This document shows, piece by piece, positions 14,589 through 58,200 of a stretch of DNA of 64,000 nt; position 1 is the stretch's first letter; the number at the start of each line of letters is the position of its first letter. The position numbers and the translations under genes are program-made. The notes under the pieces are model-generated. The model was given only the letters and a program-made list of their open reading frames with translations. It was not told where the DNA came from and did not search any database. The stretch lies in assembly GCA_022225965.2 (NCBI GenBank), contig JAKJXP020000068.1, forward strand, positions 124,001 through 188,000. The letters run 5' to 3'. Origin of the DNA: Diatrype stigma (taxonomy: Eukaryota; Ascomycota; Sordariomycetes; Xylariales; Diatrypaceae).

Positions 14589-14731
14589 CTGATTGGACAG
14601 AGAGCTATGGCTGTTCCAGCCAATCAGAAGCTTGAGAAGCTGTGTCTGCCATAGCTTGCCCGAAGCGGTATAGTCAACGGGCAGAATCCTACTGATTGTA
14701 GAATCCCCCACACCGCTTTGGAGTATATAAA
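14589..14731 (+). promoter_or_regulatory. U2 snRNA promoter: inverted CCAAT pair and TATA box
   Basis: CTGATTGG (14589-14596) and CCAATCAG (14620-14627) are exact reverse complements and form an inverted pair of CCAAT boxes. TATATAA lies at 14724-14730, about 50 bp before the start of the conserved U2 sequence, followed by a CT-rich leader. A TATA box with an upstream activator element is what one expects of a highly expressed RNA polymerase II snRNA gene. Role inferred from position. Confidence 0.6.
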
Positions 14732-14778
14732 TACCTGCCCTCCCTCCCCATCTCTACTGACTTTTTCTTTTCTTCTTT

Positions 14779-15045
14779 AGCTCTCTTTGGTATGTCAATC
14801 CCACCCCCATACTACTATCTACTGGATTCGAAATGCAGCTGCTAATCTGTTCTTTTTACGACCAACAGCCTTTTGGCTTAGATCAAGTGTAGTATCTGTT
14901 CTTTTCAGTATAAAAGCTGAAAGTACCACACTGTGGTACAATCTCTTTTATTCTAATTTTTGTCACCCGGGAGCGGTCCTCTGTGCTTGCGCATGATCAC
15001 TCCCACCGTGTCCCTGGTATTACACTGCCTCCAGGTGACGCGAAC
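14779..15045 (+). ncRNA. U2: U2 spliceosomal snRNA, split by an intron
   Basis: U2 snRNA pairs with the intron branch site after BBP and U2AF have marked it, and with U6 in the catalytic core. The 5' exon is about 14779-14789 (ending CTCTCTTTG). The second exon runs from 14869 to about 15042. Seen in order: CCTTTTGGC and TTAGATCAAG (stem I and U6-pairing region); GTAGTA at 14889-14894 (branch-site recognition); stem IIa (CTTTTCAG / CTGAAAG); stem IIb (GTACCAC / GTGGTAC); Sm site AATTTTTG at 14955-14962; stem III (GGGAG 14969-14973 with CTCCC 15000-15004); stem IV (GTCCCTGG / CCAGGTGAC) with a TATTACACTGCCT loop matching the U2 B''/A' site. The spliced length is about 185 nt, close to S. pombe U2. 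All helices are intact, so it reads as a functional gene rather than a pseudogene. The exact 5' and 3' ends are uncertain by a few bases. Confidence 0.9.
14790..14868 (+). other. Spliceosomal intron inside the U2 snRNA gene
   Basis: A 79-nt insert interrupts U2 stem I. It has a GTATGT donor (14790-14795), a branch-site match GCTAAT at 14841-14846, a T-rich tract and a CAG acceptor (14866-14868). The branch adenosine (14845) lies 23 nt from the acceptor, normal for fungal introns. Removing exactly these bases joins CTCTTTG to CCTTTTGGC, the uninterrupted U2 5' sequence conserved from S. pombe to filamentous fungi. Confidence 0.85.
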
Positions 15046-15676
15046 CTCTTTTTTCATCACTATCCTTAGCTTGTCTAGGGTTCTGAAGAAGATACGGTCG
15101 TCTGTTATGCTAAAGCTCCTGGATCTGCATGGCTGGAGGGCAAGAGCCAGTGGGACATGTTTGGATAGAAATTGGAAGTAGATGTGGACCCGGATGCTTC
15201 GAATCCCCAGCAACTGCTGCCGTGGGCAACTCAGGATTATAGAATTTGAGAAAGATTTCCCGAGAATTACCTATGATACCACCACCATCACTAACTACTA
15301 CTTTGAAGCCACAGTCTAGGTCTTGGCTTAGATGTTCGGACGAGCAAGGGTAGCCCATCAATACAACACCATCCCCCATTTGCAGGTACTCAATCTTCTT
15401 GGTGATACCCAACAGTGAGGTTGCAATGGAACGTAATAGCTTCGAAGGAACTACTATAGTAATACACTTTTTCCATTAGCCTACACTAGGTTTCTACGCC
15501 AGACTGACTGTTGTCCCAACTGCTCCTCAGCTGGATAGGCCATACATGATGGGAAATGCCAGTCTCAGCTGTAGTATCGAAACCACCATCAGCCCAACTG
15601 ATCCCGCCAACGTGAACTACATCGTGTCCTTCCCTCATTATCATTACATCTCGTACACTTTGATCCGATCAAAGCC
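15046..15676. other. Intergenic, no gene seen
   Basis: This is the 630-base gap between the U2 3' end and the stop codon of the minus-strand GTPase. A T-run (about 15048-15054) follows the U2 sequence. No coding exon or further RNA gene is evident. Confidence 0.5.
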
Positions 15677-55299: not shown

Positions 55300-58200
55300 A
55301 TGGGGTGAGTCTTCTCTTATCCGGCCCGGGCTTGACCAGCCGCGGTGCCGTCAGGCGCTGCGCATTGCGTCGCATATACTAACAGAAGCGGCAGTGTCCC
55401 CAAGTTCTTCAGATGGCTTTCGGAGCGTTATCCGGCCATATCTCAGCTCATTGCAGAGAATCGGATCCCCGAGTTCGACAACCTCTATGTGCGACGTCCT
55501 GTAACCCTTCGCCTTTGGCAAACACTGACCTGCGTAGCTGGATATGAATGGTATCATACACAACTGCACCCACAAAGATACCCATGACACATCCTTCCGC
55601 CTGAGCGAAGAGGAGATGTTCATACGCATCTTCAACTACATCGAGCATCTATTCGGGAAGATCAAACCACAGAAGCTATTCTTCATGGCAATAGACGGCG
55701 TCGCCCCTCGCGCCAAGATGAACCAACAGAGAGCTCGTCGTTTCCGAACCGCATTGGATGCCGAACAGGCCCGTGACAAGGCCGTGCGAGAGGGTGTCGA
55801 GTTGCCCAAGGACGATCCTTTCGACAGCAACTGCATCACCCCCGGCACCGAGTTCATGGCTAAATTGACACGCCAGCTGAAATACTTCATCAACAAGAAG
55901 GTCTCGGAAGACAGCGACTGGCAGGGTTGCGAGATCGTTCTTTCCGGTCATGAGGTACCGGGAGAAGGCGAGCACAAGATTATGGAGTACATCAGAAATG
56001 CCAAAGCGCAGCCCGATTATTCTCCCAACGTTCGCCATTGTCTCTATGGCTTAGATGCCGATCTCATCATGCTGGGACTTCTCAGTCACGATCCTCATTT
56101 CTGTCTTTTGCGAGAAGAGGTCACGTTTGGTCGTGCTTCCAAGACCAAGTCCAAAGAGTTGGAACATCAAAACTTCTACTTGATGCATCTCTGCATCGTC
56201 CGGGAATATCTCGAGCTGGAAGTTCAGGATCTGAAAAAGGAGGGTGTTTTGAAATTCCCTTTTGACATGGAGCGCATTATAGACGATTTCATCCTCATGG
56301 CGTTCTTTGTCGGAAATGATTTCCTGCCAAACCTTCCATACCTGCATATCAACGAAGGAGCCTTGGCTACCATGTTCCGAATATATAAGCAGATTCTCCC
56401 TCAAAGCGAGGGCTACATCAACGAAGAGGGCGTTATCAACCTTCCCCGTCTGGGTTTACTTCTCCAGGAGCTGTCCAAGGAGGAACACCGCCATTTCGAG
56501 CATGAACATGCCGACACGAAATGGCTGAAGGGCAAGCAGTTGGCCGAAACGAATGGCGAAGAGATATCCAAGTCTAAGGGCAAACTTGTCATATCCACTG
56601 CTCAGAAAGAGTTATGGAAGAAGATTCGGAAATTCGTGCACAAGCGCTCTACGGAACCCCTGGATCTTGGCCATGAACTGAAGGCTGCGGATCGGAAATT
56701 CGTCCAAGAGGCAGCTGAGAATCTCCATCTTGAATGGCGTACAGAGGAAGATGACGATGGACAACGGCACCTTATCTTATCTTTCCCGCCCAAACCCGAG
56801 GGTACCGAGGATGAGGACGAGGAAGAGGAAGGCCAGTTCGCATTGCTGCGCGTCATAAAGCGCTATGACAATTCTCAGGTCATTGACGTCTCCGCTGGGG
56901 AAGCGCAAGCATCGATGCAAGCCAAGTATAAAGAGAAGCTTATAGAATGGAAGGACAAGTACTACTCTGAAAAATTCGAGTGGACACCCGAAAACAAGGA
57001 GACAGAGCTGAAGAAGCTAAGCGAGAACTACGTCCAGGGCCTTCAGTGGGTATTATTTTACTACTATAGGGGCGTCGCTTCATGGCCATGGTTCTATGCC
57101 TATCATTATTCTCCCATGATCTCCGGTAACTACGACCCATTCCGAATGCCTGACAGTTTACTAATCGTCTTTAGATGTGGAGAAAGGATTCAATGCCGAC
57201 ATGAACTTCAAGCTTGGGCAGCCTTTCAGACCATTTGAACAACTGATGGGCGTTCTGCCAGATCGAAGCAAGAAGATTGTTCCCACGGTATATCACGAAC
57301 TGATGACTGACCCCAAATCCCCCATCATCGACTTCTATCCCAGAGACTTCGAGCTTGACATGAATGGCAAGAAAATGGAGTGGGAGGCTGTTGTCAAGAT
57401 CCCATTCATTGATGAGAAGCGACTCTTATCTGGCATGGCAACCAAGAACGAGCTTCTTTCGGCAGACGAAAAAGCCAGGAATGACTTCGGCGTCTCCCTG
57501 AAGTTTACATACGACCCAAACGTCAACTTCACCTATCCTTCCTCACTGGTCGGAATTTTCCCTGATATCCCTTACTGCCATTGCGTCGAGAATATCTTCG
57601 ACCTTCCAACAACCGAGGGGTTGGATCTATACGTTGGCCTGGTCAATGGTGTCAAATTGGGTATCGATGCCTTAGCAGGCTTCCCGAGTCTGGCCACACT
57701 ACCTTATAATGCTTCGTTAGGCTTCCACGGAGTAAACGTTTTCCAGCAGGAAAGCCGTAACGAGAGCATGGTGGTGACTCTTGCTGACGTCGAACTCCGG
57801 AGCCGAGTAGAATCTGCGAGGGTCAAGTTAGGGCAGAGATGTTTTGTTGGATATCCCTTCTTGCAAGAAGCCAAGATTGTTCGTGTTTCCGATGAACTCT
57901 TCGACTACACATTAGCCAATGATGGATCAGGACAAGTCGTGCAGACCCATCATTCTGGCAAGGAAATCGATGAATGGTCGAAGAAGTCTTCTCGTATTGA
58001 GAATTTCTACAGCAAGCGTCTTGGTATTATCATTGGTCCTGTCGATTCCATGGTCCATGTCGACATGCTAAAGGGTCTCTCCAAGACAGACGAGGGTGCT
58101 TTTATCAAGCAGTATGGGCTGATCCCTGGCATGGAGACAGATTATGCCGCACAGGCCATTGTGGACGAAGTCGTCAGTGAGGATGAGCGGTTCATAGAAA

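Follow-up and report, generated by a model that had tools for sequence, protein, structure and literature searches.

Does the filamentous ascomycete Diatrype stigma possess a gene for U2 snRNA that is interrupted by a spliceosomal intron and, if it does, must U2 splice its own precursor? Both questions are raised by a locus within the 64-kb stretch of DNA analysed here, which we call the window. In our reading, the locus is very probably a transcribed, intron-bearing U2 gene spliced by the spliceosome; it is one of three U2 genes, and a paralogue can supply U2.

Anatomy of the interrupted U2 gene

In the whole 64-kb window, the sole Rfam match at gathering score obtained with cmscan was U2 (RF00004), at 14855-15049 on the + strand, with 141 bits against a gathering score of 46. 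The RF00004 alignment and the motif positions agree on a U2 with GTAGTA, an Sm site and stems IIa to IV, as the original prediction had described it. The split of stem I by 79 nt with GTATGT, CTAAT and CAG was confirmed as an insert at 14790-14868, and the coordinates given with that prediction are correct. The features, in window coordinates, are as follows.

14693..14698, + strand: TGATTG, core of an upstream promoter element (GGCAGAATCCTACTGATTG), 86 nt 5' of the RNA start
14711..14716, + strand: CACCGC promoter element, 68-72 nt 5' of six small RNAs
14724..14733, + strand: TATA box (TATATAAATA), spaced 54-57 nt from the RNA 5' end across six RNAs
14779..14789, + strand: U2 exon 1, AGCTCTCTTTG, identical in all three U2 genes
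14790..14868, + strand: predicted spliceosomal intron, 79 nt, with splice signals and exact excision
14790-14795, + strand: predicted intron donor GTATGT
14842-14846, + strand: predicted intron branch CTAAT, branch A at 14845, 23 nt from the intron end
14866-14868, + strand: predicted intron acceptor CAG
14869..15045, + strand: U2 exon 2, beginning CCTTTTGGC, about 177 nt, RF00004 match with an approximate 3' end; it holds the rest of stem I, GTAGTA (14889), stems IIa/IIb, the Sm site ATTTTTG (14956) and stems III and IV
15064..15080, + strand: 3'-flank hairpin CCTTAG-CTTGT-CTAGGG; a hairpin folds 3' of all three U2 genes

The Rfam consensus would place the start of exon 1 2 nt earlier, at 14777, which gives a first exon of 11-13 nt, and the U2 RNA is best taken as running from 14779 (or 14777) to about 15045. 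In the cmscan alignments, stems II-IV contain one non-standard pair, the same count as in L001, an uninterrupted U2 gene of the same genome. The hairpin in the 3' flank is a possible 3'-end processing signal. The sequence CTTG lies within or beside the loop of the hairpin 3' of each U2 gene (window, L001 and L003).

Excision of the 79 nt yields a molecule whose first 60 nt are exactly those of L001, which bears out the claim that splicing would restore the conserved U2 5' end. Cuts of 79 nt at 14789 and at 14790 both reproduce the L001 start, and GT-AG boundaries are obtained from 14790 only. By alignment with L001, the intron falls within the upper helix of stem I (UG/CC). When 170,528 79-mers of own-genome DNA were screened for GTRWGT, CTRAY at 6-36 nt and YAG, a single one passed, namely the insert itself; relaxing the donor to GTNNGN let eight through, and bare GT..AG let through 639. 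The published range of branch distances in fungi is likewise 6-36 nt (PMC5832005).

Six coding introns from the XRN1 and glycogen synthase genes served for comparison, those of glycogen synthase being positioned by eye from protein matches and one of XRN1 being re-placed, as the junction in the database protein appears wrong. Their donors are GTGAGT, GTGCGA, GTAACT, GTACGT, GTAAGT and GTGAGT, and their CTRAY branches lie 9-12 nt from the acceptor (one intron carries another CTRAY, at 21 nt), as against 23 nt in the U2 intron and 22 nt in the intron of the U3 snoRNA gene described below.

The re-placed junction is an observation in its own right. At 55489-55577 (+) of the window, the Diatrype stigma XRN1 protein of the database seems to be mis-spliced. 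The D. stigma record has no DMNGI[IV]H, a motif that 75 of 102 full-length XRN1 homologues contain and that the window DNA encodes directly 3' of a 49-nt GTGCGA..TAG intron. The DNA after the re-placed junction reads LDMNGIIHNCTHKD, which without its first residue occurs in 73 of the 102 full-length homologues.

Two other classes of intron were considered and rejected. Introns of groups I and II are larger than 79 nt, and no self-splicing intron was matched in the window by Rfam at gathering score, where U2 stood alone. A multiplied, introner-like family would have left close copies, which are what a DNA search of the genome with an 84-nt query detects; its one match was the locus itself, and the U3 intron was not among its matches either.

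The distance to the promoter decides where transcription would start. In U1, the three U2 genes, U3 and U4, the TATA box precedes the RNA 5' end by 54-57 nt, and TGATTG and CACCGC precede the RNA start by 86-90 and 68-72 nt, respectively. The interrupted U2 fits the TATA spacing only if transcription begins at exon 1, which places the insert inside the transcript. It is highly improbable that the functional RNA starts instead within the insert, near 14855, and builds an alternative stem I with no splicing. The tail of the insert was indeed aligned end to end with stem I by cmscan, but at the price of two non-standard pairs where stem I of L001 has none. Such a start would also put the TATA box about 131 nt away, and it would lose AGCTCTCTTTG, which is identical in the three copies and complementary to U6. 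Judged by matching signals, excision and TATA spacing, all of them read from the DNA, the assignment of the insert as a predicted intron within the U2 transcript holds.

The segment at 14680-14735 of the window forms an upstream module of small-RNA genes, with near-fixed distances, that is common to U1, L001, L003, U3 and U4. The module is not shared by all small-RNA genes: none of its three exact motifs occurs within 140 nt 5' of the Rfam start of U5, and U6 has none of them either.

The place of the intron within the molecule points to its likely consequence. The sequence AGCUCUCUUUG in U2 exon 1 can pair with CAAAGAGAAGCU in U6 exon 2 (11 bp with one bulge, -13.3 kcal/mol), and this pairing of the U2 5' end with the U6 3' region is the same for all three U2 copies. 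Exon 1 is the strand that U2 contributes to U2/U6 helix II. The predicted splicing would thus attach this strand to the remainder of the molecule, and this position is a new detail. An unspliced U2 would keep the branch-recognition region, with the helix II strand 79 nt away and stem I broken, and is probably poorly functional.

In the mechanism that we propose, RNA polymerase II would transcribe the window U2 from a promoter of the kind found at U1 and U4. In the precursor, a first exon of 11-13 nt would be followed by the 79-nt GT-AG intron and then by exon 2, about 177 nt long; the spliceosome would excise the intron as it does from an mRNA and so link the helix II strand with stem I. The spliced product would be a U2 identical to its intronless paralogue over the first 60 nt. 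Two points speak against the predicted splicing: the very short first exon of 11-13 nt, and the branch distance of 23 nt, which exceeds that of the six coding introns, though it is close to the 22 nt of U3 and falls in the published 6-36 nt range.

Three U2 genes and the question of self-dependence

The genome searched comprises 48.98 Mb in 224 contigs, the window lying on contig C68. The XRN1 query from the window has 100% identity to a D. stigma record, and the glycogen synthase matches are consistent with a xylarialean fungus (Eutypa lata 97%, Xylaria and Hypoxylon up to 93%). A covariance-model search, in which 46 of 1070 first-look candidates were scored, gave one U2 in the window and three genome-wide; the RF00004 search and locus count proposed with the original prediction are thus available. 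Two of the three genes lack the intron. One, L001, is uninterrupted and canonical, scores 159.2 bits and carries the same promoter elements as the window U2. The other, L003 (L003:1501-1697, + strand, genome place C87), is uninterrupted and scores 124.4 bits. A core-pattern search allowing up to 3 mismatches recovered the same three genes together with one fragment, L013. This candidate fourth gene at C23, which matches 21 of 22 nt of the core, was rejected since its flanks are not U2. The fragment (L013:1501-1522, + strand) corresponds to the U2 branch-recognition region and lies, by eye, antisense to an apparent intron of a coding gene.

These paralogues settle the second question differently from what had been expected. 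The proposal that U2 is forced to splice its own precursor does not stand in the face of two uninterrupted genes: self-dependence is not obligatory because the intronless L001, canonical and with the same promoter elements, can supply U2. In the mechanism outlined above, this paralogue would provide the U2 for splicing, and there would be no strict circular dependency. An intact U2 gene elsewhere that supplied all U2 RNA, with no spliced reads from the window locus, had been named in advance as evidence against the intron; the intact gene, one half of this condition, exists as L001, which could supply all U2.

Intact intronless paralogues also mean that the loss of one copy would be tolerated, and the window U2 might accordingly be a dead or silent copy, inactivated by an intron-like insertion of 79 nt, with all U2 coming from the intronless genes. 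We consider this unlikely. A random insert with three splice signals and boundaries that exactly restore the RNA is very improbable, and the window U2 has retained its promoter elements, exon 1, Sm site and stems II-IV. After splicing it would match L001 at 183 of 188 aligned positions. The five exon differences (one in the linker, three on the 3' side of stem III and one in a bulge of stem IV) add no non-standard pairs in stems II-IV, the count being unchanged with respect to L001. Outside the RNA the two copies are less alike: 73/98 positions agree in the promoter, and 53/89 (with 22 gaps) in the stretch 5' of it, against a baseline of 46/100 on average for random 100-mers. The contrast between 183/188 in the RNA and the much lower identity of the flanks indicates that the RNA has been conserved or homogenised. 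The comparison favours a window copy maintained as a gene.

The third gene, L003, is the most divergent U2, its RNA matching the window copy at 167/188 and L001 at 169/191 positions, and each pair of the three promoters agrees at about the same number of positions (72-73 of 98-99). L003 has changes in stem I, and ATCATG replaces ATCAAG beside the branch-recognition site; its promoter elements are the same. L003 is possibly a variant U2.

Predicted introns of U6 and U3, and the possible origin of the U2 intron

Six small RNAs of this genome were examined, and introns were predicted in three of them (U2, U3 and U6), in the case of U2 in one of three copies. One copy each was detected of U1, U4 and U5, and all three gave full-model alignments with no long insert, the U1 score being 51.2, under its Rfam threshold of 69.5. 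The model search for U6, in which 47 of 2374 candidates were scored, and a pattern search each gave a single gene; for U3, scoring of 24 of 514 candidates likewise gave one. The U6 and U3 features are as follows.

L004:1441-1596, genome place C103, - strand: U6 gene, sole copy detected
L004:1487-1541, - strand: predicted U6 intron, 55 nt, CCCCT/GTAAGT ... ATAG/GCACTAAGGATGACAC, inside the CCCCT/GCAC region
L018:1501-1892, genome place C7, - strand: U3 snoRNA gene, sole copy detected
L018:1789-1881, - strand: predicted U3 intron, 93 nt, after GTCGACAAT, with GTGAGT ... CTGAC ... CAG

The U6 intron has no CTRAY branch. In U3, the first exon measures 9-11 nt, and joining of the exons restores box A' TACTT. 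Self-dependence does apply to U6, as far as copies were detected, the single one being interrupted; U2 differs in that intronless copies exist.

The paralogues weakly favour a gain of the intron on the window copy over its loss from the two others, and we regard gain as the more likely direction. An ancestral intron lost twice, for example by recombination with cDNA, is a less probable origin, though one to be taken seriously; it concerns origin only and is compatible with the window U2 being a spliced gene. As a rule, introns are lost more often than they are gained, and homogenisation of the RNA between U2 copies would blur the tree. Against an ancestral intron, L003, the most divergent copy, is also without one, which requires two losses in place of one gain. 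The polarity is weak because no promoter stands clearly apart from the other two, and homogenisation weakens it further.

If the intron was gained, its source could in principle have been the U3 intron, an idea that we hold to be doubtful. The U3 intron, released in a spliceosome containing U2 snRNA, would have been reverse-spliced into U2; reverse transcription and recombination would then have fixed it in a single U2 gene. Such a transfer would have as its marks an in-register CCCNCCCCCATACT block, distances of 22-23 nt from branch to acceptor, tiny first exons and the presence of the intron in one of three paralogues. The two introns share an ungapped match of 13/14 nt at an identical offset from the donor, which was reached by 0 of 9734 79-mers starting with GT and by 0 of 20,000 shuffles. 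Their global alignment score, the best among eight introns compared with that of U2, was reached by 3 of 5000 shuffles, and among the nine places listed for GTNNGTNNNNCCCNCCCCCATACT, the matches in the U2 and U3 introns (2 of 9) are the only exact ones. Against homology, the local score was reached by 83 of 5000 shuffles, and of 168 intron-like segments, three (two among the 92 of 70-95 nt) align at least as well to the U3 intron over its full length, two of the three overlapping at one place. The shared pattern was selected after the match had been seen; at up to 2 mismatches it gave 9 matches as against 14 for the reversed control pattern, and a poly-C intron-like segment, L022, matches it with 1 mismatch. 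A DNA search of the genome with the whole U2 intron did not have the U3 intron among its matches. With controls as mixed as these, homology of the two introns is suggestive only and not established.

Relation to known introns and significance

Rhodotorula hasegawae is a basidiomycete yeast, unlike Diatrype stigma. An mRNA-type intron in its U2 gene was described by Takahashi et al. (1993; pmid 8355704), as cited in PMC2586383, and the two genes are alike in carrying an intron of spliceosomal type in U2. None of the titles and abstract openings among the matches listed in our literature search describes an ascomycete U2 intron. The earlier claim of a U2 gene split by a spliceosomal-type intron in a filamentous ascomycete is supported, and a U2 intron, that of R. 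hasegawae, is already in print. A 24-nt U2 core pattern had no match in viral_contigs and matched four stretches in three records of genome_contigs, apparently from other eukaryotes in bacterial bins (by eye), which have no bearing here.

The closest precedent for the U2 intron is the U3 intron of D. stigma itself, found in a gene with the same promoter module, a similar first exon (9-11 nt) and a branch distance of 22 nt. U3 acts in rRNA processing, so that, unlike in U2, an intron in it does not feed back on the spliceosome. U3 is a Pol II gene in fungi. In the abstract of PMC5832005 it is termed a polymerase III gene; the same source counts 138 interrupted genes among 310 fungal U3 genes and eight genomes that mix intron-bearing and intronless copies. 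The fungal U3 introns described there have donors that are mostly GTRWGT, branches of the form RCTRAC and acceptors that are mostly CAG, and like the intron of the window U2 they are placed in the 5'-most stem-loop. U6 is also often interrupted, again according to PMC5832005, which cites Tani and Ohshima (1989) for fission yeast and Canzler et al. (2016). As with U2, a U6 intron means that a spliceosomal RNA itself needs splicing, and L004 is an example in the same genome.

Introns in spliceosomal RNAs are natural cases in which the splicing machine processes its own part, and predicted introns in U2, U3 and U6 occur together here in one filamentous ascomycete. The U2 locus comes with built-in controls, namely two intronless paralogues in the same genome that share its promoter elements, together with exon differences that distinguish the products; these make the gain of an snRNA intron, and any effect on U2 dosage, directly testable.
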